IMG/VR virus record: IMGVR_UViG_3300029787_000431
Coordinates: 1-20,338 of that record
Strand: one strand, 5' to 3'
DNA length: 20,338 bases
DNA from: a virus
A program made the position numbers and the translations under genes. Within the stretch, counting starts at the first letter, position 1, and every line of letters begins with the position of its first letter. Under the pieces are notes generated by a model. That model did not search any database and was not told the DNA's origin. It saw nothing but the letters and a program-made list of their open reading frames with translations. This document shows positions 1,704 through 20,338 of this stretch, piece after piece.

Positions 1704-4700
1704 TTAATATGAGCTACTACTAGAGCTAGAACTACTACTACTACTACTGCTGCTGCTACTATTATAGTTGTTGCTACTACTAAAGCCTTCAGCGTTAACA
1801 AATCCGTCGGAACCTGACTCAAAGCTAAAAACAGGTACTATATCTACATCATACCCTGCCGCTGGAAGAGTTCCACTTATAAGGGTTACATTTGATGTTA
1901 AATTACCTAAACCTTGAACTGAAAATTCTTTAGTATCTATGTTAGTATCGTCGATAGTGCCACCATCTGCAACATTAGTATGCTTAGTAGTAACGCCTTT
2001 AACATAAGAAAACCATTTGCCTTCTTTATCTAAAAAATATGTAGGTATTGACTCTTGCAAATTAGTGTTTAAGTATTCACCATACCAACCGTCTTTTGCA
2101 AATAAATTATAATAGTCGTTATCTTCTTCGTTTATATTAACTCTAGCTTGAGTGCCCTCGTAATCAAAATATCTAAAAGCTTTTACTACGCTAGGCTCAT
2201 CGTTGAACAAACATGTTATTGAAGAATTATACTCTGTACCATAAAAAATATTATAACCTTCTTTATCACTATGGTGTCTGTAAATTTCACCATTTTTAAA
2301 CGTATAGTATTTATTATTTAAAGTTAAAGCAGCTTCTTTTATAAAAGACTTAAAACTAGTCCAACCGTCTACAGTTTCGTTATAAGATAAAGTGTTAACT
2401 AGTTTTGTAGCATTTCGCTGTATAACTTCATGAATACTTATATTATAATCTTCTTTATCACTATCAAAAGATCCTATAATTGCTTTAGAGTTGGTTAAAT
2501 GATCTTTAAACCAGTCATTCATACCTACTTTTGATATAGGTGTTATTCCGTCTCCAGAAAGTCTTATTACCGCGTTTCTTTGAACATCTGTAAAATAACA
2601 TCTATATTCGTCTGCCGCAAAGCTTTCAGGATTTTTAGATATACCATAATCACCTTTAAAAGGTATTGCTTGACCTAGCACTTTATCTGTAGCTAATAGT
2701 TGTTGATTACCATCAGCATTAAATAAAGCATCTTTTTGAGATAGTACTTTTAAACACTTTTTTTCACAAAGCGTTAATAAATCATTGTTTCTTGAAAACA
2801 ACTTTTGTATACTACCGTAATCAGGGTTTATTTGTTTAATAATGTCTTTAGCCATTATAAACTCATTAAATCTATTTAGCCCTCTATTTTCATTGTATAT
2901 TTCAGAAAATATTATATCGTTTGGCTTAGTGTATTCTGAATAGTTTATAATAGGAGTACTAGCTTTTACACCACTTTGTTTTCCACTAGCTATATATTTA
3001 AAAAGTTCTGCGCCATTAAAATCATCTCTAATAGTATCAGACTCTACGCCATTACCAAAAGATATACAGTTATACCAAGAAAGGCTATTTTGCAAGTAAC
3101 TAACACCATTGTCATAAGCCGTATCATAGTGAACTATAGGATTTAAATATATAGAATGTTCTCCTAAGCCTAAATATCTACCTAAAAAAGCTTCAGTATA
3201 AGACCCGTCAGAATTAGTAAATCTAACTTTAAAATTACCCATAGCTGGATTAAAATTGTAGTCTGAAGGCGTACTTAGTCTTACTCTGCAATAATAATCT
3301 GTGTCATTATTTAAGTTTTGAGCCGCACCATTAGTAACGCCACCTTCAACGCTTATAACAGAAGGATTTGAGTAACTGTTTTCACTAAATATACCATTTA
3401 CCATAGCAATATCTTCGTGTATCGTTACTTTAGCACCTTTTTTAATGTACTTACTTGCTTGTCCTTTTTCAAGCCTAACAGGGTAAGCATCACCTATTTC
3501 ATAATAAAGATCTAAGTCTAATTTATTATCAGGCTCAACTTCAAACACAGCACCGTTATTACTACCAACTGATGTTATAGCGCCATCGTCGCCAAGGATT
3601 CCAAGAGTAGACTCTGCTGTTCCGTCAATATTAACTCTAGCTACTTTAACAAAAAACTTACCATCAAGCTCGTTTGCATCAACTTGTAAGCTTGGTGGTA
3701 CAATAACTCCTTCTAAAGTTGTATTATTATCTGCGTCTATTTTTGCTTCACCTATTATTGACACAACTCTATGTCTAGCGTCTTTGCTCGTTATAGGATT
3801 GTTTGAGTCATGTTGCTTTTTAGATATTAAATAGTTTCCAGTTTTTACTTTATCTTTATCTACAGAGTTAAACACTAAATACATATAGTCTCCTTCGTCT
3901 GAAGCAAACGCCGCTTCTAAAACTAAGTTTTCATATTTAGAAGTGTTTTCTTTTATGAAGTATTTATATGTTTTAGCCCAAGACGGCGCGTTATTTCTAG
4001 GCGAAACTATTAAACTGTTTTTATTGGGCGCTTTATCTTTCGAACAATTAAAGTCTTCATCTTCACCAATTAAAACAGAGGTTTCTCTACCTAAATCATC
4101 TCTATATACAATACCTACGTTATAGTTTCTTTCTGACTTTATAGATTTTTGACCTATTAAACTAGGTAGCTCAAATGTTGTTGAAGGAGCAGAAGTAATT
4201 TCAAAACTAGCGTTAGTAATGGTCATAATATCTAAAAAATTAGTGACCGGATCTTCGTCAGACTGAACATGTAAAGATAATCGCTGATTAGCTTGTAGAA
4301 AAACTTCTACTTCAGGTATTTCAATATCATAAGCAGCGCCTGGATAATTACCTAAAGAATTAGCTTCAAATCCATTAGCTTGCATTTGATTTTCGTCGTT
4401 CCAACCACTAAACACAGGTGCAGTTTCATTGTTTATTGCAAAATTATTATAGTAAGTCCAAGGAACTGAGCTAAAACCAGTGTATGCCCCAGTATCTCCA
4501 TTAAAACTTTCCGCACCTACTATAGTACTAACCGTTTGATTAGCATCTCCGTTAGTATCAATATCAGGCGATGCTAAACCAACATTAACGTCCCCAATAG
4601 CAGTCCATATTGCACTCTCTAAATCTACTGCTGGTAAAATTATAAGCCTAACTCTTCTTGGTCTAGGAGAATTACCATTAGCAAACTCAGAGTAATCAGC

Positions 4701-7001
4701 TCGAACTCTAGCTGAAGCTTTTATTTTGTAAAAACCTTCTTCAGGGGCTGTGTAAACGCTAAACTCATTTCCTGCAGTAAAGTTATCTCCTGGATCACTT
4801 TCAACACCCATTTTAATAGACATGCTAGTCATTATATTAGCAGTGCTACCCATAGTACCGTTTAATAAATAACTCGTTGGGTTGTTTACAAATATATCTT
4901 CTCCGTCATTATTTTCTATAAGACTATTATGCACTCCTTGACTAGCGCTAAAAATATTTGCAGAATTAAAAGAGCCAAGAAATCCTCTTGAATCACTTTT
5001 AATATAACTAGTAATGTTAGGTGTTATAGCATTGCCATAGATGTCAAACAAATTATAATCTTGTGTATAATTAGCATACATCAACCTATTAGCTTGTATT
5101 TCTTGTGCTACGGCTTTTTTTGGAACCGCATCAAAAGTTCTTAATAATTGATCAGACGGAATAGTATATCCAAATAATCTTTCTTTTATATTTATAGAAG
5201 AAGTTTCGTAAGAGCTTACATTTCTATATGCTTGCAAACCTTGTAATACAAGAGATGGTAAAGGCGCGGCTAATTTATCTACAGTTCTAAAAACAAAGAT
5301 ATTATCTGATTTTGAACTTTTAAAAGCTAATTCAACAGCAATTACATCTCTTGGGGTATGATCGTGAATAAAATCAGTTAAATCAATTTCCTCTAAAATA
5401 TTTTGCATGCCAAGATTAAATCCGTCTTTTGGTGAATACGAGTAGTTATCAGGCAAAAACATTGCGGTTGTAAAAGGAGCTAAGCAAGAAGTTTCGTTAT
5501 CAGTATATATATACCTGTAAGAAAAACTAATAAAGTCATTATTATACAGCTCTTCTTTAGCAATTGAACTAGCCTTCCAAACTTCAGCCACAGATCCAGA
5601 ATCGTAGCCTTCAGGATATTCACTTGTTCTTTTAACTACATAATAACCTCCAAGTTCTGCGCTAGGATTACTTCCGTAAACTTCTGTAATTTGAATTGTA
5701 ATTGAAACAGCGCTGCTGTCACCATTAAGCTTTAGTGTTGTACCTACAGGCCAAGGGGCTTGTAATGTAGTTTGAGGCTGTATATATATATTAGCGTTTA
5801 AGTTGTAAAGATTACCTGAAGCATCAACAAAATTCCAAAGTGACCAAGGGGCATCGCTACCTCCCGGCTTACTATAAACAGGAATATCATTTATATTGTT
5901 AGAGCCAGATAAAACTTCTGTAGCTTTTATAGCAGTTTCAGGATTAGGCTTTAAAACTGTAATATGAGATTCTTTTGCGTAGTCTACTGGAAATAGTGTT
6001 TTATTTTTTCTAGAAACAAGCATTGTATGTGGGCAAGCAAAAATACTTGGTAAAGACTCAGTAGCTGGATTACCGGCTATTGATCTTTCTACACTTAGTT
6101 TTTTAGGCTCATTTCTTCCGTCGGTAAAAAATAAATAATCATCTATTACGTTAATAGCGCTTATATAAGAATTATTAGGAGTGAAACTTGTTGGTGATCC
6201 TTCTACATTAGTCTCTTGTTCGTTAGAAGATCCTTTTGTAAAATTTAAAATTCTTGGCGCTGTAAACTTTAAATAAACGCCTTGGTTTCTCATGTTGTTA
6301 TTCCACAATACGTTTTCCGCGCTATATATTCTATTAGTTGTTATATCAAAAAGATTGCCGCCTATATCTCTAATGTTTTTTACTATTATTACGTTATCAT
6401 TGCCGTAAACATCAATACCATTAATATCTATAGCTTGAACTCTCATGCCTACTCTTATATCACTAGCGTTTATAAAAGTATCAGCAGGATATTCTGTATT
6501 TGGCAAAGTATAAAATTCACCAGCAACAGCTCGTATTACACTGTTAGCATTTTCATCAGTTTGATATGGTCTTATGTTAACTTGATAAACGTCGTTAAAA
6601 ACTACTTTTGATTTAGTTAAAGAACTTTCAGTTTTGTGAGGAGTTATTTGCTCAATTAAATCAGATCTTTTACCAAGAAATAAAGTTTTGAGACCATAAT
6701 CAGTGTTAACTTCAAATTCGTCAAAGTTTGAAGCATCACAAACAAAGTTATATATATGATTATTTTCTGCGTCATTAAAAACGCCAACAGTTTGAGCAGA
6801 GCTATGCTTTGCGTAAGAGTTTACTGTGTCTGATGCCCATCTAGTATTACCTTTTAATGTTTGAGCTGTTCCAACATCTGGACCTTCAGAGCTTGATATT
6901 TCAATATTTAAAGCATCTCTGTATTCGCCTTTTGGAACAAGTCTTTCATCTAAGTCTTTGTTCATTTTGGCTTTTAAAAAAGTTCTTTTTAATTCAGCCA
7001 T
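1704..7001 (-). CDS. Giant tail muzzle/stabilization-like protein (1765 aa)
   Basis: The N-terminus (KAKMNKDLDERLVPKGEYRD, then ALNIEISSSEG) and a later block with GDYGISKNPESFA, RCYFTDVQRNAVIRLSGDG and IIGSFDSDKEDYN near residues 1440-1520 match, from memory, the large 'stabilization'/muzzle tail proteins of crAss-like and related marine phages, which cap the short tail below the ring proteins. It is long for the family. Residues of about 715-940 look like an inserted jelly-roll domain (FSVYTAPEEGFYKIKASARV, then QRLSLHVQSDEDP and NASFEI); the family-like sequence resumes at SERNYNVGIVYRDDLGRETS. The C-terminus is 17 serines followed by a single Tyr. The gene starts with ATG three bases after the previous stop, with an A/T leader and no Shine-Dalgarno. 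No enzyme motif is evident. The structural role is fairly secure; the muzzle assignment is from family resemblance and position. Confidence 0.82.
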   Translation of the reverse strand: MAELKRTFLKAKMNKDLDERLVPKGEYRDALNIEISSSEGPDVGTAQTLKGNTRWASDTVNSYAKHSSAQTVGVFNDAENNHIYNFVCDASNFDEFEVNTDYGLKTLFLGKRSDLIEQITPHKTESSLTKSKVVFNDVYQVNIRPYQTDENANSVIRAVAGEFYTLPNTEYPADTFINASDIRVGMRVQAIDINGIDVYGNDNVIIVKNIRDIGGNLFDITTNRIYSAENVLWNNNMRNQGVYLKFTAPRILNFTKGSSNEQETNVEGSPTSFTPNNSYISAINVIDDYLFFTDGRNEPKKLSVERSIAGNPATESLPSIFACPHTMLVSRKNKTLFPVDYAKESHITVLKPNPETAIKATEVLSGSNNINDIPVYSKPGGSDAPWSLWNFVDASGNLYNLNANIYIQPQTTLQAPWPVGTTLKLNGDSSAVSITIQITEVYGSNPSAELGGYYVVKRTSEYPEGYDSGSVAEVWKASSIAKEELYNNDFISFSYRYIYTDNETSCLAPFTTAMFLPDNYSYSPKDGFNLGMQNILEEIDLTDFIHDHTPRDVIAVELAFKSSKSDNIFVFRTVDKLAAPLPSLVLQGLQAYRNVSSYETSSINIKERLFGYTIPSDQLLRTFDAVPKKAVAQEIQANRLMYANYTQDYNLFDIYGNAITPNITSYIKSDSRGFLGSFNSANIFSASQGVHNSLIENNDGEDIFVNNPTSYLLNGTMGSTANIMTSMSIKMGVESDPGDNFTAGNEFSVYTAPEEGFYKIKASARVRADYSEFANGNSPRPRRVRLIILPAVDLESAIWTAIGDVNVGLASPDIDTNGDANQTVSTIVGAESFNGDTGAYTGFSSVPWTYYNNFAINNETAPVFSGWNDENQMQANGFEANSLGNYPGAAYDIEIPEVEVFLQANQRLSLHVQSDEDPVTNFLDIMTITNASFEITSAPSTTFELPSLIGQKSIKSERNYNVGIVYRDDLGRETSVLIGEDEDFNCSKDKAPNKNSLIVSPRNNAPSWAKTYKYFIKENTSKYENLVLEAAFASDEGDYMYLVFNSVDKDKVKTGNYLISKKQHDSNNPITSKDARHRVVSIIGEAKIDADNNTTLEGVIVPPSLQVDANELDGKFFVKVARVNIDGTAESTLGILGDDGAITSVGSNNGAVFEVEPDNKLDLDLYYEIGDAYPVRLEKGQASKYIKKGAKVTIHEDIAMVNGIFSENSYSNPSVISVEGGVTNGAAQNLNNDTDYYCRVRLSTPSDYNFNPAMGNFKVRFTNSDGSYTEAFLGRYLGLGEHSIYLNPIVHYDTAYDNGVSYLQNSLSWYNCISFGNGVESDTIRDDFNGAELFKYIASGKQSGVKASTPIINYSEYTKPNDIIFSEIYNENRGLNRFNEFIMAKDIIKQINPDYGSIQKLFSRNNDLLTLCEKKCLKVLSQKDALFNADGNQQLLATDKVLGQAIPFKGDYGISKNPESFAADEYRCYFTDVQRNAVIRLSGDGITPISKVGMNDWFKDHLTNSKAIIGSFDSDKEDYNISIHEVIQRNATKLVNTLSYNETVDGWTSFKSFIKEAALTLNNKYYTFKNGEIYRHHSDKEGYNIFYGTEYNSSITCLFNDEPSVVKAFRYFDYEGTQARVNINEEDNDYYNLFAKDGWYGEYLNTNLQESIPTYFLDKEGKWFSYVKGVTTKHTNVADGGTIDDTNIDTKEFSVQGLGNLTSNVTLISGTLPAAGYDVDIVPVFSFESGSDGFVNAEGFSSSNNYNSSSSSSSSSSSSSSSSSY
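1710..1760 (-). repeat. Serine-codon repeat encoding a 17-serine C-terminal tract
   Basis: Seventeen consecutive serine codons sit just before the final Tyr codon and stop of the 1765-residue muzzle gene. Read in coding direction they are AGT, three AGC, six AGT, then TCT, AGC, TCT, two AGT, AGC and TCA, so the middle is an almost pure AGY triplet run and the end is mixed. The run could slip during replication by whole codons without breaking the frame. The mixed codons near the end argue that serine itself is selected, not only DNA repetition. Confidence 0.9.
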
Positions 7002-10081: not shown

Positions 10082-11587
10082 TTACTTCATTAACATGAAG
10101 TTGTTAGCAGCTTGTGTCACTAAACATCTTTCAGATAAATAGTGAACTTGCATTGCATCAAGCGCAGATGTAGTAGCTCCAACAGAACCAGTAACCCAAG
10201 TCTTCATTCTTCGGTCATCAGTTTGAGAAGCTCTATAACGTACGTGTAAGAAAGGACGTTTAAGGTTCTTTCCTAAAGCTTGATCGTAAACAGAAGATAC
10301 ACCAGCTGGAATAATAACACCACGGATAGCTGCGCTACCTGCTCTATCGTTAATACCACCACGTGTAGCTTTGTCGTTTAAGTAACGGAAGTCAGACTTA
10401 TAGAAGTCATAAGATCCTCTACGGAAACCAGAGAAGCCTAAGTTTAATGCCATGTCTTCAGAGTTATCAAATACACCGTAAGATGTACCACCAGCTCCGT
10501 AAGAATTCATAGAAGCTAACATATCGTCCATAGCCAAGCTTGTAGCACGGTTAACAAATAACATGTTTTCTTCAATAGCACCCTGCTTGTCAAACTCTGC
10601 TAAGATAGCGTCAAACTCAGCTAAATCAGTAGCAGGGTTAACACCAGTTACACCAGAAGTAAGATTACCTCTTGATTCAATAGCAGCGAATAATCCTTCA
10701 GTACCAGAACCACCGGCACCAGAATCAGCAGCGCCTCTAATCTGTCCATCGTCACCAAAGCCGATGATAGAGTTAGCAACTGTTAATTCACCTTCTAACA
10801 TAGACATTTCTAAGTAGTCAGTAAAACGAGCTCTTGTGTCACCTTCAGCTTTTAAGTACCAGAAGTAACCGCTTTGTCCTTCTTCACCAGAAACTTCAAC
10901 CCAACCAATTTGAGCAGCATCAGATCCAGAGATCTCATAGTAGTCTTTCATTATGATTGGCTTGTTAGTAAATGATTTGAAAGTAGGAGTAAGAGCTTGT
11001 CTCTTGCTAGATCTAAAAGTACCAGTATCATCTGTATACTCTTGACCTTTTCCGTACTCAGAACCAATAACTAATAAAGTAGCAGTTCCGTCAGCAAGTC
11101 CTGCGGCAGTACCTGTAGCCTCTGAATAAGGCTCAAAGCTTACAACAGCAGACTCTGGAGTTTCAACGATAAGAGCTTTAACAACAACACCCGCTTGCGC
11201 GATTAATACAGTGTCGTTAGTTCTAATACCGTGATTAGCTACAACAAATCCATCAGCTAAAACGTTACCGTCGATGTCAGATGTTACAGTAAAAGTACCG
11301 TTAACATCACCGTCAGCGTCAACAGTTCCGATGTAAGATAAGTGTAAACGTGATTGTTCAGACCAGACAACTTGATCAGATGTCATAGCCTCTTCAGCAC
11401 CTACTTGAGAAAGAAACCCTGAGATAGTTCTGTTTCCAAAAACCTCAGCTTCTTTTTCCATAAGTTCTGGCAAGTATTGTTGAGCCCAGTCATTACCTGC
11501 GCCCGTAAAATCAATGTAATTGCTAGCAAGCGTTTGCTGCTGTGGAGCAGCTATGCTGTTTAACAATGGTCCATTAGTAATAGCCAT
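10082..11587 (-). CDS. Major capsid protein (HK97-fold, crAss-like type)
   Basis: The 501-residue protein has features I associate with crAss-like and related major capsid proteins: an N-terminal helix region with LMEKEAEVFGNRTISGFLSQ (42-61) and SDQVVWSEQSRLH (70-82). A beta-rich inserted segment follows at about 90-175 (SH3-like in appearance: HGIRTNDTVLIAQAG). Near the C-terminus come GFRRGSYDFYKSDFRYLND, IRGVIIPAGVSSVYDQALGK, KRPFLHVRYRASQTDDRRMK and the final CLVTQAANNF. It builds the icosahedral shell. It lies after the scaffold-like gene and just before a strong terminator. Codon choice differs from its neighbours (TTC, AAC, AAG, GAC and CGT favoured in the stretches I read), as expected for the most highly translated virion gene. 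ATG start, AT-rich leader without Shine-Dalgarno. No separate prohead protease gene is present between portal and capsid. Confidence 0.92.
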   Translation of the reverse strand: MAITNGPLLNSIAAPQQQTLASNYIDFTGAGNDWAQQYLPELMEKEAEVFGNRTISGFLSQVGAEEAMTSDQVVWSEQSRLHLSYIGTVDADGDVNGTFTVTSDIDGNVLADGFVVANHGIRTNDTVLIAQAGVVVKALIVETPESAVVSFEPYSEATGTAAGLADGTATLLVIGSEYGKGQEYTDDTGTFRSSKRQALTPTFKSFTNKPIIMKDYYEISGSDAAQIGWVEVSGEEGQSGYFWYLKAEGDTRARFTDYLEMSMLEGELTVANSIIGFGDDGQIRGAADSGAGGSGTEGLFAAIESRGNLTSGVTGVNPATDLAEFDAILAEFDKQGAIEENMLFVNRATSLAMDDMLASMNSYGAGGTSYGVFDNSEDMALNLGFSGFRRGSYDFYKSDFRYLNDKATRGGINDRAGSAAIRGVIIPAGVSSVYDQALGKNLKRPFLHVRYRASQTDDRRMKTWVTGSVGATTSALDAMQVHYLSERCLVTQAANNFMLMK

Positions 11588-12844: not shown

Positions 12845-15262
12845 TTATCTAGGTTCAAATCCACCTAAATCAAATCCACCAAGTGTATCATTACCTGCAG
12901 ATTCAAAACTTTTAGGTGCGCCACCTGTTTTTCTTTGTTCAATAAGCTCGCTTTGTTGTGACGCTTGAATTTTAGTTCTTTCGTCTTTTCTATCTTCTTT
13001 TTCTTTTTCTTTACCTTTTAAAGCTTCAACTTCCATTTGCTTAAGCTGCATGTTCATTTGAAACTCTAGCTGCATAAGCTGCTTTTTAACTTCAGCTTCT
13101 TGATTTAATTTTTGAGCATCTAACTGTCCTTGTAATTGGGCTAGCTGGGCTTTTGTTTGAGCCATAACTTGTTCTTTCTGCGCTTCAAGTTGCGCAGCAT
13201 TTTGAGCGGCTTGCGTGTTAGACTGCGTTTGCAACTGTATGTTTCTTTCTTGCATTTGTTGGTCCCGCTTCAGTTTTTCTTTTCTTCTTATTTTTAATAG
13301 TTGATTAGCAAGAGTAACATTTCTTATTTCTCTAATATCTATAGCATCTTCTAAATCAATATTTTTTTGAGCTAAAGCTTGTTGAATATTATTTTCAAGC
13401 AAAGCTTTTTCTTCTTCATCTGGTGCTAATTCTAAAAATATACCAAAGTCATAAAGATGAAGATTACTCATTTCTTCTAAAGTTCCTACGTTATGAGAAC
13501 CTATTGCTTCTATAAAAGCCTCTCTAGTTGGAGAGTATTCTATAACGTCTGATATTCTAAGAGACAGAGACTCTGCGACGTCACTAGATAAAAATAAACC
13601 AGCTTGAAGTATATGTCTAGTAGCAGTGTTTGAGTTTGCTGCAGCTAGCTTTTGTATACCAACTAAAGCGTTTGAGTCTGGCGTGCTGCCATCTCTAGCT
13701 TCGTTAAGCCCTGTTGTATCTCTAATCATCTGTAAGTAGTAATTGTAATTAGCTATCAAGCTTTGCATTTTACCTCCACCGTTACTACTTCTTATTTCTT
13801 GTATAGGTACTTTACCAGGATTCATATCACCATCAGCAGTCATTGATCTACCAATAACACTACCTGTTTGGAAGAACATATTTAAAGCTTCTTGTGGATT
13901 ATAGTTTGTGCCGTTGCCTAAATCAACCTCAGCTAAACCGTCAGCATCTAAATAAACACCATCAGGCACCATACGCGACATTACTTGTTGTAACTTCAAG
14001 TGTGTTAATTGTATCATGTCAGCAAAACCAGTAATACGACTAACTAGAGACTCTATACGACCTTTATACATACGAGGTGCAACTATAGAATAATTCATTT
14101 TAACTTTAGTATAATCGCTTTTTGGTCGCATCATGTTTTTTGACATTTCCCATTTTAAAAGCTTTTCAGTACCTAGCACTAAAGCGCCTTCGTACAAGCA
14201 CTCTACATTTCTTTGTATTTTAGAAAAGTTTGCTTCAGGATTTTCTGGTGGATTAAATGTATCATCTTTTTCAATTGCTTTTTCCATACCTGAACCAGTC
14301 TCTTTTACTTTGTAGACTTGGTTCATATACGTCTTATAATTAAAATATAACACTCTAACTTTGTTTGAATCTTCTTTTTCGTTAGAATAATTATCTGGCT
14401 TTTTGTTAGGGCCTTTTTGTATTTGTTCTAAGTCTTCTTGTGTTAAGTGTGGAAACTGTTTAGCAAGTTCATTAATAGGTATAGACTTTACTTCTCCAAC
14501 ATAATATATGTCATCAAAGTACGGTGACTCAGTATAAGAGTAAACTAAATCTGCAGGATCTACATAATCTATAGTAATGCCTTCAGATGTATTAAAATTT
14601 GTTTTAACTGCACCAATACCTAAAACTGTTAAATCGTAATAAAATCTTTTTTTAGTAAGCTCATATTTGTTGCCTTCAAATAATACTCTTAACGCTTGTT
14701 CTTCGGCTAGCTCTACAGCTTGTTTGTAAGAAAGCTGCATGTGAAGTTTAAGTTCTTCTTGAGTTTTAGGTAAAGTCTCAGGATCATTCTCATACATATT
14801 TAATCCAAACGCTTTGCCTACGTAATCGTTAAACTCTTGAGTTTTCATATCTTTAAGTACAGACTCCATATACTCAGTTCTTAAACTAACTCCGTATGGA
14901 TCTTGAGAATATGCTTTTATATCGTAAGTTCTTTCAGCAATACCATTAACAACAATATCAACAAACTTAGGTATTATTGGCACTGGCTTCCAGTCTAAGT
15001 TTAAATAACTTAAATCGCCATTAATAGATAACTCATCTTTATATTTTTGTATAGACTGTTCACCTCTAGCGTATAATCTTAAATTATGAAAGTTTCTTTG
15101 ACTATGACCGTGCATGTTATAGCTAGATCCTCTATGAGACGTATTATCACCATACCATTCACTCTCTATAGCTCTTGCTACTTTTAAACCATAGTCATAA
15201 CTAACTTTTTCTATATCACTTACTACTTGGCTTGGAAAATAACTATTACCAGAATATGCCAT
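12845..15262 (-). CDS. Portal protein with a long Gln-rich coiled-coil C-terminus
   Basis: The 805-residue protein lies directly after the terminase (two-base gap) and before the scaffold-like gene. Portal proteins form the dodecameric ring through which DNA enters and leaves the head. Family-like segments are PVPIIPKFVDIVVNGIAERT near residue 95, DLTVLGIGAVKTNFN with YVDPADLVYSY near 210-245, YKGRIESLVSRITGFADMIQ near 410, and TGLNEARDGSTPDSNALVGI with NSNTATRHILQ near 515-550. Residues of about 650-780 are a Gln/Ala/Lys/Glu-rich coiled coil (LEAQKEQVMAQTKAQLAQLQ and similar), followed by a Gly/Phe-rich tip FESAGNDTLGGFDLGGFEPR. The coiled coil is longer than in short portals and may reach into the capsid interior. 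ATG start with an A/T leader. Confidence 0.93.
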   Translation of the reverse strand: MAYSGNSYFPSQVVSDIEKVSYDYGLKVARAIESEWYGDNTSHRGSSYNMHGHSQRNFHNLRLYARGEQSIQKYKDELSINGDLSYLNLDWKPVPIIPKFVDIVVNGIAERTYDIKAYSQDPYGVSLRTEYMESVLKDMKTQEFNDYVGKAFGLNMYENDPETLPKTQEELKLHMQLSYKQAVELAEEQALRVLFEGNKYELTKKRFYYDLTVLGIGAVKTNFNTSEGITIDYVDPADLVYSYTESPYFDDIYYVGEVKSIPINELAKQFPHLTQEDLEQIQKGPNKKPDNYSNEKEDSNKVRVLYFNYKTYMNQVYKVKETGSGMEKAIEKDDTFNPPENPEANFSKIQRNVECLYEGALVLGTEKLLKWEMSKNMMRPKSDYTKVKMNYSIVAPRMYKGRIESLVSRITGFADMIQLTHLKLQQVMSRMVPDGVYLDADGLAEVDLGNGTNYNPQEALNMFFQTGSVIGRSMTADGDMNPGKVPIQEIRSSNGGGKMQSLIANYNYYLQMIRDTTGLNEARDGSTPDSNALVGIQKLAAANSNTATRHILQAGLFLSSDVAESLSLRISDVIEYSPTREAFIEAIGSHNVGTLEEMSNLHLYDFGIFLELAPDEEEKALLENNIQQALAQKNIDLEDAIDIREIRNVTLANQLLKIRRKEKLKRDQQMQERNIQLQTQSNTQAAQNAAQLEAQKEQVMAQTKAQLAQLQGQLDAQKLNQEAEVKKQLMQLEFQMNMQLKQMEVEALKGKEKEKEDRKDERTKIQASQQSELIEQRKTGGAPKSFESAGNDTLGGFDLGGFEPR

Positions 15263-15264
15263 AT

Positions 15265-17475
15265 TTATTTTATTATTTTAGAAGTAAAGCCATCGTTTTT
15301 ATATTTAGCTATACCTAGGTTTATTTTTTGTTTTTTTCGACTAGCTGTTGGTCTATATAAGTTTTTATTACAAGCCATGATAGCTAGCCCTGAGCTTATA
15401 GAGGCATCGTGTTTTGTTCTTTTGTTTATATCAAACTTTGCCCAGTCATTTAATGTTTCATTAAAGTAAACACTACCGTAATTACCATTTTGCAAATGAC
15501 CAACATGATCGTTTATATACATTTCAATAGCAGCAGCATGAGCTTGTTTTATATCTTCGCTTGAGTTTGGTATACCACCAACTTCTTTCTCAGAAGTACT
15601 AAGCTTGCTCCATATTTTATCAGGTCTATTCATACTAAATCCTCTATAGCCTCTTCGCTTAAAATAATAAAGTAATCTTGGTTTATTGTTTTCTGCAAGT
15701 AATGGCATGCCGTAAAAAACACAAGCCATAAGAACATCTTCAAAAAATATTTCAGCGGTTTGTGGTCTAGCTATATATTCTAGAAAAAGCTGGTTTGCCG
15801 GCGCATTATCCATGCTAAATTTAGTTAGTCCATGAAGAGATCCGTTGGATCCTCTACCATCAACAGTACCGCTAATATCATAGCTATCGCAACCAAAAGC
15901 GCCAATATGCTCATTTCCAGGATATTTTATTCCATTTTTAAGTATTACTCGGTTTTGTAAATTTCTATCAGGAATCCAGCTAACTTTAAATCTACCGTTA
16001 GGATCTGGGTGAAATATAACTTGAGTGTCTTTAACACCATTAGCCCATTGAAAAGCTCCTTGAGTAACTACAGAAGAGTTTCTATTACCTTCGTTGTAAT
16101 CTATTTGCTCGTATATTTTTACAAGATTAAACAAACTATTTTTTGTTTCATCTCTAAATGCATGCTCTTCAGTTCTTGGAAACTGTCTGTAAAACTCATT
16201 TAAAGCATCTTGATCATCTTTTAATCCTTGAGCTTCATTTTCCCAATGATCAATAACGCCTACATCTATTAATTCACCATCTGGTCCGAATACATCATTG
16301 CTAGGGTTATTAAATACTGGTTGTCCATGTTCGTCAATAAATCCTTCAAAGTTCCATTCCATTGGCATAAACAAAGAATATAAACCAGATTTTGTCTGTC
16401 CATTTCTATTTCTACTTCCGACGTCTGAGTCATTATATAATTTTTTAAAGTTATCACCACCTTTGTCTAGCGAGTTGCTAGTAGATCCCATCATACACTT
16501 GCCAATTACTCTACTACCTAAACGCAAACAAGTTTTAGTTACACGCCAGTTATTTAATATATTATCAGGTCTTTCCCATTTACCGCTTTCATCGTGAACT
16601 AACAAATTAAGCTTTTCACCGTCATAGCTGTTATCACCTGTATTTTTCCAATCAATAGTAGTATCAAGTCCAACCAACTCTTCCTGCTTTTCGTTCGCAG
16701 TAATTTTCCTACGCGTAAACTTACTCGCAGGAACCCTATAAGCAAGTTCACTTTTAGGTCTGTCCATACCATCTTGTATAGGTTTGAAGAAAAACGGATA
16801 GTTAATAGATATTGGTACAACTTTGTCGGTAAACATTTTTTTAGCATCTGCTCCTGATTTTGATAATATGCCATATCTTGCATCTGAAGATATTGTAGCT
16901 TGATTTACTGTTTCTGCGGAAGACATAAAAGAAAAGCCGCTACGTCTGTTTTTTAAATAACACATACCGTAGCAGCGCTTATCTGCTTTACAAGCCTCCC
17001 AAAATATATAGAATAATCTATTAGCTTCTCTAAAGTCTGGCGCGCCTACATCTATTTTGCTCCATTGCAAATACATATAATGGCTACCAGTAATATACGT
17101 AGGCTTACCGTTATTCATAAACCAAAAGCCTTCGTCACGACGTTTAAACTCTTCGTCTATATAATCGTACCATTGCTCTTTTGCTTCTTCTGGATAACTT
17201 CTCCAGTCAAATATGTTTTTTAACTTGCCTAGCTCTTTAGGATATTCTATTTTTTGCCATTTATCTACTTTGCCGTGCAACTTCCCTGGCACTCCTGGCA
17301 GCGCAATTCGCAAACCTTGGATCTCAAGTATTTCACCGATTCTTCCAGTTTTAGAAATAACAACAATATCATTTTCTTCATTATATCCATATTTCCATTT
17401 TTTAGATTTGTTAAGTCGACTCATAGTAGTCTTCTTAACTGGTTCAACAATTTTATATAGCGTTTGTTCGTACAT
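15265..17475 (-). CDS. terL: Large terminase subunit (packaging ATPase and nuclease)
   Basis: This 736-residue protein drives DNA into the procapsid and cuts the concatemer. The ATPase has a deviant Walker A, KNRRSGFS at 175-182, with the lysine at the front of the loop as in lambda gpA-type terminases. Walker B is LLVHDE (291-296), with catalytic Glu296, and a motif III-like GSTSN is at 330-334. The RNase H-like nuclease probably uses Asp530 and/or Asp533 (AFGCDSYDISGTVDGRG), an acidic residue at 579-580 (FFEDVL), and Asp690 (KRTKHDASISSGLA). The length fits crAss-like terminases. The ATG overlaps the upstream stop as TAATG, so translation is probably coupled to the preceding small gene. Three cysteines (162, 168, 172) cluster just before Walker A; I know no role for them. 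Confidence 0.96.
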   Translation of the reverse strand: MYEQTLYKIVEPVKKTTMSRLNKSKKWKYGYNEENDIVVISKTGRIGEILEIQGLRIALPGVPGKLHGKVDKWQKIEYPKELGKLKNIFDWRSYPEEAKEQWYDYIDEEFKRRDEGFWFMNNGKPTYITGSHYMYLQWSKIDVGAPDFREANRLFYIFWEACKADKRCYGMCYLKNRRSGFSFMSSAETVNQATISSDARYGILSKSGADAKKMFTDKVVPISINYPFFFKPIQDGMDRPKSELAYRVPASKFTRRKITANEKQEELVGLDTTIDWKNTGDNSYDGEKLNLLVHDESGKWERPDNILNNWRVTKTCLRLGSRVIGKCMMGSTSNSLDKGGDNFKKLYNDSDVGSRNRNGQTKSGLYSLFMPMEWNFEGFIDEHGQPVFNNPSNDVFGPDGELIDVGVIDHWENEAQGLKDDQDALNEFYRQFPRTEEHAFRDETKNSLFNLVKIYEQIDYNEGNRNSSVVTQGAFQWANGVKDTQVIFHPDPNGRFKVSWIPDRNLQNRVILKNGIKYPGNEHIGAFGCDSYDISGTVDGRGSNGSLHGLTKFSMDNAPANQLFLEYIARPQTAEIFFEDVLMACVFYGMPLLAENNKPRLLYYFKRRGYRGFSMNRPDKIWSKLSTSEKEVGGIPNSSEDIKQAHAAAIEMYINDHVGHLQNGNYGSVYFNETLNDWAKFDINKRTKHDASISSGLAIMACNKNLYRPTASRKKQKINLGIAKYKNDGFTSKIIK

Positions 17476-17753
17476 TACTTAGATCTTCCTTCAGCAAAGC
17501 CTTTAAACACTTTTTCTTTTTTTTCTTCAGGCTCTTTGCCTTCTAATATATTCTGTTCTTCTTGTATACGATTAAGTATTTCAAAAGCATCGAATATAGC
17601 TAGCTTTTTTGTAGCTGCAGCATTTTTTAATCTGTCCGCAGACACATCATCTTCGCTGTGAGTAATAATTTGTTCTTGAGCCACTTTAATAAGCTCTTCA
17701 ACTGCTTTATGCCCAGCTTGGATTATACTCTTCTTCGTCTCCTTGATATTCAT
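17475..17753 (-). CDS. Small helical protein, candidate small terminase subunit
   Basis: I start this at the ATG at 17753, giving 92 residues beginning MNIKETKKSIIQAGHKAVEE; a start further upstream would overlap the GroES-like gene more deeply and add a peptide unlike phage proteins. It still overlaps that gene by 47 bases. The chain is almost entirely helical: AGHKAVEELIKVAQEQI, DVSADRLKNAAATKKLAIFD and AFEILNRIQEEQNIL, then a charged tail EGKEPEEKKEKVFKGFAEGR. Its stop overlaps the large terminase start by one base. Size, helical content and position fit a small terminase subunit that recognises phage DNA, but I see no clear helix-turn-helix, so the role is a contextual guess. Confidence 0.72.
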   Translation of the reverse strand: MNIKETKKSIIQAGHKAVEELIKVAQEQIITHSEDDVSADRLKNAAATKKLAIFDAFEILNRIQEEQNILEGKEPEEKKEKVFKGFAEGRSK

Positions 17754-18288
17754 ATTTAATTGTAATAAACTTAGAGTAAACTCTATATAACTTTTCGTTT
17801 TCAATAACAAACTCGTATTTTGAAAACGGCTCAAAACCTACAATATCTCCTTCGCTAAAACTTCCATCAGTATATTTAATTACACCTTTAGTTTTATGTT
17901 CTACTTCAATATCGAATTTATTAATAGATTTTATAGGTTTAACAAAACAAAAACCTTGCATTGGCTTCCAAGTGTCTTTTGACTTATAAGCAAATATTTG
18001 ATCCTTGTTTACAAAGTACATATCTTCACGATAGTAAGCTTTACTGTTTCGCTCTTTGCCTTTTATATCATGCCACCTTCTAAACACATTATGATGAACT
18101 ATAATAGTATCACCAACTTTAAGCTTAGAGCCTGCATTTATAGGTAAGGCTAATATTTCAGCTTCTCTATTAACGTATTGATGATTAAAAACCTCTGTGT
18201 TAACTATTAAGCTTTTACCATCTACATCTACAGAATTATTATATCTTTTACCTAAAGGCTTTATAATATAGTTATACAAAGACTTCAC
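17707..18288 (-). CDS. Tandem GroES-like (Cpn10) phage co-chaperonin
   Basis: A 193-residue protein in which I see two GroES-like halves. Half one (1-101): NYIIKP (6-11), a loop with KSLIVN (25-30) where GroES has its GGIVL mobile-loop motif, EILALP (44-49), LKVGDTIIVH (56-65) and YFVNKDQIFAY (91-101). These line up with GroES strands RVIVK, GEVLAVG, VKVGDIVIF and LIMSESDILAI. Half two (110-179): GFCFVKP (112-118), KGVIKY (134-139), FSEGDIVGFEP (144-154) and KLYRVYSKFITIKY (166-179), with a shorter loop. The C-terminus ends EEEYNPSWA. The start is GTG in a TAGTG overlap with the previous stop, implying coupled translation. By analogy with T4 gp31 it would cap host GroEL so that capsid subunits fold. 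Alignment was by eye. Confidence 0.78.
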   Translation of the reverse strand: MKSLYNYIIKPLGKRYNNSVDVDGKSLIVNTEVFNHQYVNREAEILALPINAGSKLKVGDTIIVHHNVFRRWHDIKGKERNSKAYYREDMYFVNKDQIFAYKSKDTWKPMQGFCFVKPIKSINKFDIEVEHKTKGVIKYTDGSFSEGDIVGFEPFSKYEFVIENEKLYRVYSKFITIKYEYQGDEEEYNPSWA

Positions 18289-18509
18289 TAGTATTCTAAG
18301 TTATACTCTACAGATATTGCCATGTTTTTGTTGAAGTCTTTCCAAGGCAAAACGTCTTTACCTTTCTTTATATATATACTATACTTTTCTTCTTCTTCAA
18401 TAATGTCGCAAATAGTATGACCACCATACACTTCTTGATTAACAGAGTAGTGCATAGCGTCAATCTTGTAGTCTTTACCTATTGTAATTTTACGGATTAA
18501 CTTGCTCAT
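18288..18509 (-). CDS. Small hypothetical protein in the packaging operon
   Basis: A 73-residue protein, MSKLIRKITIGKDYKIDAMH at the start, with an early basic strand (KLIRKITIGKDYK), a middle VYGGHTICDIIEEEEKYSIY and a final KGKDVLPWKDFN. The alternation suggests a small beta-barrel fold, but I recognise no function; similar short proteins recur near terminase genes in marine phages as I remember them. It overlaps the coiled-coil gene upstream by 20 bases and the GTG start of the GroES-like gene by one base (TAGTG). The ATG is preceded by an A-rich leader (AAAAACAAA). The tight overlaps on both sides support it being a real gene. Confidence 0.75.
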   Translation of the reverse strand: MSKLIRKITIGKDYKIDAMHYSVNQEVYGGHTICDIIEEEEKYSIYIKKGKDVLPWKDFNKNMAISVEYNLEY

Positions 18510-18799: not shown

Positions 18800-19849
18800 T
18801 TAAAGACTTACAAAGCTAATATCTCCTGATAAGTCTGCGCCGGTTTTCATATAATCAACCATATTATGATTTAATGGATAGTATAATACAGGTGGTAGAG
18901 CTTTTGGTACTACAAACGCACTATCATTATTAACTGTCTCTCTGTAATCGTTAAAGTTTCCACTATTGTATAATGCCGTTGCTTGTGAAGATGATAATTC
19001 ATAGTTAAATACAGCAAAGTCTCTTATACGCATAGATGATAAAGTTGAATTATATGCAGTTGAGCCACTGTTATAAGCACTTGTTTTTTGTCTATAAGTT
19101 CCTATGCCAAGAAAGTTTGCGGTATCATTTGTAAACTGAGGATCATCATCTCCTGTGCCAATATCTATGTTCATACCTAGAGATGTACCATTCCAATAAA
19201 CGTCCCAAGCAGCACCACCTGTTTGTTCACCTCTAGTAAAAACTAAATGAACATAACCTTCAGTATTAGTGTTGCCAGGATTATCTGTGTCCCAAAGACT
19301 GTTAGTGCTGCTACCGCTAGACCCTGTACCTGTTGTACCGTTAACATCGTGCATAGCTCTTTGAGTGCCAGCCCTATCAGTTCCACCATCTAAAAGAACA
19401 GTAATCCTATTTCTAAAGCTACTACCACTTCTATAATTTAAATAAGCAAGAATAGACATATCGCCACCTAAAGCATTAGATGTATTCATTTGAAATAAAA
19501 TTAAATTAGTAGTTCCGTTTGACCAATTACCACTTGAAGCACTGCCTGAATGACTCCATGTAGGTTTAATCCACATTGAAAAACCTATCTTGTCGCCAAA
19601 GTCAGCGTCTGTAGTTAATAAATCTTGTATTGAAACTCCACTGTTTTGAGTGCCTAGTTCTGTAATATTTCCATCGGCAGCTAATTGTAATCCGGGTTCA
19701 AAGTTATAACCAGCAATTCTTTCGCCATCTGTATAATTGCCATCAAACTCGTGCCCGTTAGTTTGACAAGCGTGAGTCGCAGCCCATTCATAGCGATTTG
19801 CGTTATTGCTAGGTTTTACACTAGATAAAGAAGCGTTTAATCCTATCAT
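18800..19849 (-). CDS. LamG/concanavalin-like domain protein, likely surface adhesion or glycan binding
   Basis: I choose the ATG at 19849 (MIGLNASLSSVKPSN, 349 residues) because it overlaps the previous stop as TAATG and has GGAGA a few bases upstream; the longer frame begins with a TTG. Residues of about 85-298 have the LamG-like jelly-roll pattern: KIGFSMWIKPTW (88-99), EGYVHLVFTRGEQ (197-209), WDVYWNGTSLGM (215-226), NFLGIGTYRQ (245-254), and the closing MRIRDFAVFNYELSSSQATA (273-292) with LYNSGNF. Such domains bind glycans or act as decoration on phage heads and tails. There is no signal peptide. A Gly/Ser/Thr/Asn-rich stretch at 160-197 may be a flexible loop. It sits upstream of the packaging genes, away from the tail genes. 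Ligand unknown. Confidence 0.78.
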   Translation of the reverse strand: MIGLNASLSSVKPSNNANRYEWAATHACQTNGHEFDGNYTDGERIAGYNFEPGLQLAADGNITELGTQNSGVSIQDLLTTDADFGDKIGFSMWIKPTWSHSGSASSGNWSNGTTNLILFQMNTSNALGGDMSILAYLNYRSGSSFRNRITVLLDGGTDRAGTQRAMHDVNGTTGTGSSGSSTNSLWDTDNPGNTNTEGYVHLVFTRGEQTGGAAWDVYWNGTSLGMNIDIGTGDDDPQFTNDTANFLGIGTYRQKTSAYNSGSTAYNSTLSSMRIRDFAVFNYELSSSQATALYNSGNFNDYRETVNNDSAFVVPKALPPVLYYPLNHNMVDYMKTGADLSGDISFVSL

Positions 19850-20202
19850 TAGTCTCCAAAATAACAAATTATACCACCATCAGCGTCTGCAGCTGGAGTA
19901 ACACTTGTCCATCTACCAAATATAGTAGAGCCACCAGGAAATTTAGCGCCAGATAAAGCTAAACCACCATCACCGTGGTCAGTAGCATTAGTACCTGACG
20001 TGTCTTGCTCGTGAGCAGCTGAAACTGTATTAAAATACATTAATGGATCTTCAGACACTAAAGCTCCAATTGTATTATCAGCTATAAAATATATAGCTAT
20101 TATAACTTTTCCCGCTGGAGGTGTTACTGCTGTAGCAGTATCACAATAAGCGCTTCCTAACTGTCCAAATTGATAAGCTACTTCTGTTGAATTTATTCCC
20201 AT
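19849..20202 (-). CDS. Small beta-rich phage protein of unknown role
   Basis: A 117-residue protein starting MGINSTEVAYQFGQLGSAYC. It contains TPPAGKVIIAIYFIADNTIG, SEDPLMYFNT, a His/Asp/Gly-rich loop (EQDTSGTNATDHGDGG), and a closing FPGGSTIFGRWTSV with DGGIICYFGD. The strand pattern suggests a compact beta-sandwich, as in small capsid decoration or fiber-tip proteins. I remember similar short proteins in uncultured marine phages but know no function. Its stop shares one base with the ATG of the LamG gene, so the two are probably made together and may act in the same virion structure. ATG start with an AT leader (AAATAAATAAA). Confidence 0.78.
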   Translation of the reverse strand: MGINSTEVAYQFGQLGSAYCDTATAVTPPAGKVIIAIYFIADNTIGALVSEDPLMYFNTVSAAHEQDTSGTNATDHGDGGLALSGAKFPGGSTIFGRWTSVTPAADADGGIICYFGD

Positions 20203-20207
20203 TTTAT

Positions 20208-20338
20208 TTATTTATTAGTTTGTTCGTTTTTCTTTGAACTTCCACCGAAGAAGAAGTCTATTATTGTATTTACTTTAGCACTCATAGCACCAAATATTGT
20301 TGATATAAAACTTATTTCAAATTCACCAAGCTCAAGCG
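20208..20338 (-). CDS. C-terminal part of an unidentified protein, 5' end outside the window
   Basis: An open frame enters from the window edge and ends with TAA at 20210-20208, leaving 42 readable residues that include LELGEFEISFISTIFGAMSA and end IIDFFFGGSSKKNEQTNK. It is five bases upstream of the 117-residue gene and in the same direction. A hydrophobic stretch precedes a Lys-rich hydrophilic tail, a layout seen in small membrane proteins such as holins, but too little is present to say. An internal ATG (MSAKVNT) could also start a 25-residue peptide. Confidence 0.6.
   Translation of the reverse strand, partial: LELGEFEISFISTIFGAMSAKVNTIIDFFFGGSSKKNEQTNK

Follow-up and report, generated by a model that had tools for sequence, protein, structure and literature searches.

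How a phage might use a gene that reads as two GroES-like halves in one chain, and on which chaperonin ring, is the question raised by a locus beside packaging genes. The window, meaning the whole stretch of 20,338 nucleotides analysed here, carries on its minus strand an open reading frame of 193 codons plus stop with a GTG start (positions 17707-18288), which we call the tandem Cpn10-like, or double GroES, protein. Directly upstream on the same strand is a 73-residue ORF (18288-18509) whose stop shares one base with that GTG. Downstream, all on the minus strand, follow a 92-residue ORF (17475-17753), by its place a small-terminase candidate, the large terminase TerL of 736 residues (15265-17475; phrog_6681, 5.1e-173) and the portal protein of 805 residues (12845-15262; phrog_6547, 1e-152), so that the placing of the gene inside a packaging operon by the earlier note on this DNA was correct. 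The longer reading of the 92-residue ORF (17475-17834) gave nothing above the curated cut-off in family searches. Still on the minus strand lies a virion structural protein of 501 residues (10082-11587; phrog_13704, 1.9e-95), a candidate major capsid protein and candidate client of the double. The seven annotated records of relatives that were examined have the same order of a small ORF, the double, sometimes an ORF of about 95 residues, TerL and portal. Elsewhere in the window, a 355-residue ORF with a TTG start (18800-19867) resembles by eye a LamG-type (concanavalin-like) domain protein, and a 1765-residue protein (1704-7001) closes with over a dozen consecutive serines.

The double belongs to phrog_13932, annotated "co-chaperonin GroES" (4.6e-19, residues 1-172). 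At least 596 IMG/VR stretches were confirmed as relatives of the window protein and the best 80 were taken, the matched stretch starting at ATG or GTG in 77 of these 80 loci. With other homologues as queries, IMG/VR relatives numbered 540 for the Manatee Spring phage (the best 80 of the 540 were taken), 20 for the elemovirus and 4 for phi38:1, with 5 loci for phi18:3, lists that may overlap; no relative was confirmed in IMG/VR for the protein of Maribacter phage Panino. Among GenBank phages, 77 records match the window protein (68 of them Flavobacterium phages from one isolate set) and 85 match the Manatee protein, the named genera being Flavobacterium, Cellulophaga and Maribacter. Another 20 matching loci, in bacterial and archaeal genome bins, are taken as putative phage contigs swept into the bins. 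The double is carried by a family of aquatic phages with hundreds of relatives, and its database labels in annotated relatives run from "hypothetical protein" to "chaperonin cpn10".

Comparisons across the family used an alignment of 76 rows, the window protein and 75 representatives at 90% identity, every one of which matches phrog_13932. From 187 ORF matches, 19 failed the start or length rule, and 8 of these loci were restored by hand while 11 were not. Rows with ambiguous letters, one locus with a misplaced start (L163) and loci from annotated records were left out, the start of L130 was moved, and L089 and L099 were shortened at the C-terminus, by 5 and 6 residues, to bring them in line with their clade.

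AlphaFold2 modelling of the whole chain from this alignment reached a pLDDT of 80.2 and a pTM of 0.72, and half one modelled alone reached 89.4 and 0.76; it was folded separately because one domain can fill the structure-match lists of a whole chain. The predicted structure has two Cpn10 barrels head to tail, as the Cpn20 architecture requires, and thus differs from T4 gp31, which is a single domain. Among solved structures, 7ekq_R, a plastid Cpn20 and itself a tandem Cpn10, matched the whole chain best and was the sole Foldseek match below 0.001 (2.5e-5, rmsd 7.3, a value implying that the angle between the barrels differs from that of Cpn20 or is uncertain). A second aligner gave the same chain a Z of 10.0 and an rmsd of 3.7 over 156 residues, spanning residues 1-180 of the model. 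Among predicted viral structures the top match was an unnamed protein (TM 0.88 by query), followed by the phi18:3 "Chaperonin cpn10" (TM 0.75).

Domain 1 (residues 1-106; 17971-18288, minus strand) also leads to Cpn10 when compared alone. Its 16 leading entries were all Cpn10 or GroES, with Z from 8.2 down to 5.6, followed by dehydrogenases and oxidoreductases, enzymes that contain a GroES-like domain; two chains only reached a Z of 8, below which, by the caveat of the aligner, a match may reflect a common arrangement. Foldseek with half one alone returned nothing below 0.001, its best entry being GroES at 2.1e-3. The structure of T4 gp31 matched domain 1 (residues 1-103) with a Z of 6.6-6.7. 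Domain 2 (residues 107-177; 17758-17970, minus strand) matched GroES structures with Z up to 8.9 over residues 106-180 of the model. Both halves are, as modelled, GroES-type beta barrels. The two halves that the earlier note had made out by eye are supported by the whole-chain and half-one models and by structure comparison, and its parallels with Cpn20, the best match, and with gp31 are both recovered.

Sequence comparison favored the halves unequally. In hhalign, the C half scored 96.9% against bacterial GroES and 91.5% against phage single GroES, whereas the N half scored 36.7% against phage single GroES, 9.4% against bacterial GroES and 12.2% against the C half; the maximum in six sets of 50 column shuffles, a soft control, was 8.5%. 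Half two is clearly Cpn10 by sequence and by fold; half one is assigned to Cpn10 by its fold and the family to which it belongs, with a faint signal from sequence. With a Cpn10 profile match found and two barrels in the predicted fold, neither outcome that would have refuted the earlier note came about; the half nearer to Cpn10 by sequence is the second, a correction to that note. The window protein itself has no Pfam or NCBIfam match, PF00166 included, and its sequence alone found no useful match among PDB sequences; the 76-row profile reached GroES only at 0.008. Across the alignment, PF00166 was found at E<=0.01 in 4 of 76 members and phrog_3188, the single-GroES family, in 16 of 76, and for the homologues of phi18:3, phi38:1 and Calle_1 the second half scored above the curated PF00166 cut-off. 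Since the window protein lacks a PF00166 match, we assign it to Cpn10/GroES in the wide sense, through phrog_13932 and its fold, and do not file it as a standard GroES. In a domain tree the 14 N halves clustered with a support of 0.943, as one old fusion would predict; the C halves did not cluster, and that of Baltivirus fell among bacterial GroES.

The two domains differ most in the loop with which GroES would grip GroEL. Loop 1 (residues 12-40; 18169-18255, minus strand) carries an LIV tripeptide at residues 27-29, counted on the translation, and is 25-29 residues long across the 76 rows. Its hydrophobic triple is present in 74 of 76 rows (38/39 in the window clade, 27/27 Manatee-like, 6/6 elemo-like, 2/3 Callevirus-like and 1/1 Baltivirus). 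Loop 2 of the window protein (residues 119-135) has 17 residues and no hydrophobic triple. It is likewise 17-19 residues long throughout the window, Manatee-like and elemo-like groups, with the triple in 1/39, 3/27 and 0/6 rows, respectively, whereas the Callevirus-like and Baltivirus rows have 26-28 residues and the triple in 2/3 and 1/1. One Callevirus-like loop 2 (L191) contains GSIIVPNSG, close to GGIIIPD in bacterial GroES. Under a similar but not identical rule, the bacterial GroES loop measures 22 residues in 10 of 11 sequences, the eleventh being mis-split by the pattern.

By sequence, then, domain 1 has a mobile-type loop with its tripeptide and domain 2 a shortened one, mobility itself being putative. 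The uneven loops described by the earlier note are real in the group of the window, as is its long loop with a hydrophobic tripeptide in half one; its short, altered loop in half two holds for the lineage of the window but not for the whole family. To judge from a few lineages, the ancestor may have had a mobile loop in each domain, with that of domain 2 disappearing afterwards. The segment corresponding to the roof hairpin has median lengths of 8 residues in N halves, 9 in C halves (a range overlapping the bacterial one), 7 in phage singles and 11 in bacteria; the phage double thus has a shorter roof segment than bacterial GroES, as does T4 gp31. An insertion of 12 residues after HHN is peculiar to domain 1, giving a span of 14 residues compared with 2 in C halves, singles and bacteria. 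In the 76-row alignment N67 and G77 are invariant and H65, H66 and F69 nearly so, and all five lie in or beside this insertion.

The chain ends in a nearly invariant tail, KYEYQGDEEEYNPSWA (residues 178-193 and stop; 17707-17757, minus strand), which, by comparison of reading frames across rows, overlaps the start of the 92-residue gene in a different frame. Among the 38 rows carrying KYEYQG, 37 have an ATG in the frame of that gene, and the frame is open over 90-93 residues in 37 and over 62 in one. Dual coding may be the source of the conservation of the tail. The 39 rows of the window clade were assigned by this tail in the loop comparison, so its absence outside the clade is partly a matter of definition. 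In three phages (L081, L184 and L185) the small gene ahead of TerL is missing, and TerL itself, at 876-879 residues, has an extra N-terminal part that by eye closes with G(F/Y)(A/P)E. A similar GFAE stands towards the end of the small protein that the window and Manatee phages encode separately and, again by eye, not in phi18:3. On these sequences, the extra part of TerL may be a small terminase that has become joined to it.

To see the double beside other chaperonin genes, we searched 25 records, chosen because they carry it and hand-picked for length, 18 of them of at least 55 kb; W03 and W07, and W05 and W06, look like near-identical pairs. A separate single Cpn10 was found in 18/18 records of at least 55 kb (17 above the cut-off, and G011 just below) and in 3/7 shorter ones, and a GroEL match in 15/18 and 3/7, respectively. 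The three long records without a GroEL match, those of phi18:3, phi19:3 and L191, all have the single. This co-occurrence is an observation and not a test, because the records were hand-picked and lack a baseline of unselected phages. In the five window-clade records with a GroEL match, 11-14 bases separate GroEL from GroES, and the double lies on the same strand, downstream of the pair by 3.2-4.5 kb; of these five, one needs a circular contig, in one the GroEL is cut by the contig end and in one it is in two pieces. The phage GroELs, of which 14 of 19 loci were aligned, have TKDGVxVA in 14/14 and GDGTT in 13/14 (GDSTT in the elemovirus). The L073 record (G011), with GroEL in two pieces and its single Cpn10 just under the cut-off, holds an interrupted or misassembled GroEL-GroES pair. 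The window record has no separate Cpn10 match, as expected of a record that stops at 20,338, about 2 kb beyond the start of the double. Given these hand-picked long records, the picture of the double as the only lid, set on a host GroEL, is probably wrong for most members.

The fold of both halves, the contrast between loops, the family spread, the gene position and the co-occurrence are all computed here, and together they lead us to propose, with a probability of about 0.6, that the double is a tandem-Cpn10 co-chaperonin subunit that would join the single Cpn10 in a mixed lid on the GroEL of the phage or of its host. Two GroES-type barrels on a short linker would form part of the lid that closes the ring while late phage proteins fold, with domain 1 supplying the putative GroEL-binding mobile loop and domain 2, which in the lineage of the window has lost most of its loop, acting mainly as a ring element. 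We favor a ring shared with the single, since a single Cpn10 and in most cases GroEL are encoded by these phages as well. Three doubles and one single, for example, would give seven domains. Plastid Cpn20 and Cpn10 are reported to form mixed lids, as seven-domain hetero-oligomers (extract of PMC3542282); Arabidopsis Cpn10(1) is likewise described as functioning only together with Cpn20 (extract of PMC4242682). The clients would be head proteins such as the 501-residue structural protein, a suggestion modelled on the T4 gp31-gp23 pair (PMC3012670, in extract). Against the proposal weigh further points: a plain lid does not account for the domain 1 insertion, which holds several of the most conserved residues of the family; a second lid has no obvious use in phages that already bring a GroEL-GroES pair; and a place before TerL fits a packaging factor equally well.

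The double could instead form a lid of its own, as a trimer of six or a tetramer of eight domains on the seven-fold ring, leaving the single to other clients. Cpn20 homo-oligomers are reported to function, as are concatemers with six, seven or eight GroES domains, in the available text of PMC5780408 and PMC3542282. The single lies 3.2-15.8 kb from the double on the same strand in 13 of the 18 records compared and on the opposite strand in 5. The presence of a single in every long record, even in the three without a GroEL match, argues against this arrangement, which we regard as possible, at perhaps a minority chance.

We consider it slightly less probable still that a GroES fold was recruited as an accessory of head assembly or packaging, for instance as a partner of terminase or portal, and lost chaperonin binding, with the single Cpn10 as the genuine lid. 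The fixed place by TerL and portal in the seven annotated records, the coexisting GroEL-GroES pair in most long records, and the domain 1 insertion with the loss of loop 2 would all suit such a role. Against it stand the preserved length and hydrophobic pattern of loop 1 and the tripeptide that domain 2 retains in the Baltivirus row and in 2/3 Callevirus-like rows. In the phi18:3 record, moreover, four proteins of the stretch have an MS/MS note and the double a similarity note only, which speaks weakly against a virion part and is silent on a transient factor. Capping of the ClpP protease by the double, with the single, to protect phage proteins, in the manner of the Chlamydomonas Cpn11/20/23 lid, is very improbable: the best structural match, 7ekq, is titled as a ClpP complex containing Cpn20, and CPN11, CPN20 and CPN23 are reported to associate with the Clp core (PMC8889267, in extract), but that match may merely reflect 7ekq being the tandem Cpn10 listed, most of these phages carry GroEL, and none of the 25 phage records searched has a ClpP match, so that the protease would have to be the host's.

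The mixed lid has a bolder form, which we hold to be doubtful. Three doubles and one single would close the phage's own GroEL ring with seven barrels, and in lineages that lost loop 2 only four loops would grip GroEL, so that large head proteins would fold in a cage held less tightly or set off-axis; this would be a second, independent invention of the plastid solution.

Plastid Cpn20 (also Cpn21), found in chloroplasts and apicoplasts, is the nearest known system: its single chain, about 190 residues long, likewise contains two Cpn10 barrels and matches the double over its whole length. It too coexists with a single Cpn10 in chloroplasts (as stated in the extract of PMC5780408). The double differs in being phage-encoded, in its domain 1 insertion and in an identity of 14-17%. 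In apicomplexan Cpn20 a mobile loop and roof are reported for both domains (PMC3542282, available part), whereas the phage loop 2 is shortened in most rows; since loop 2 of the window protein is short and has no hydrophobic triple, we describe the protein as having Cpn20 architecture yet do not file it as Cpn20. T4 gp31 resembles the double in its proposed role of phage lid protein and in the match to domain 1, but works with host GroEL (PMC3012670, in extract), while the double has two domains and most long records have their own GroEL. The phage EL chaperonin is, like those found here, a phage-encoded GroEL homologue; it is reported not to interact with E. coli GroES and has no known lid in the accessible part of PMC7185714, whereas here GroEL, single and double occur together.

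As a co-chaperonin, the gene already has its name in databases. The phrog_13932 label is simply GroES, and the seven annotated records leave the tandem architecture unmentioned. The Panino paper, in the portion available, mentions GroEL and GroES homologs only, without the tandem architecture. In the literature searched, which does not establish absence from print, we found no description of tandem Cpn10 in phages or of its coexistence with a single lid and GroEL. Tandem Cpn10 poses the puzzle of an even number of lid domains on a seven-fold chaperonin, one addressed until now in plastids. Phages of Cellulophaga, Flavobacterium and Maribacter that are in culture and carry GroEL, single and double lids would open it to testing in bacteria, where the domain 2 loop is kept in some natural variants and not in others. 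Such a phage would also be an example of a virus equipped with an entire folding machine in modified form, in part linked to its packaging genes.

Two other Cpn10 frames from a marine bin, of 160 and 216 residues, were considered as doubles and rejected, being by eye single Cpn10 domains with N-terminal extensions. In a marine bin that has 11 Cpn10 matches, the contig loci L287 and L288 each encode one Cpn10 domain preceded by a long N-terminal extension, and near them lies a Glu-rich ORF that by eye is scaffold-protein-like.
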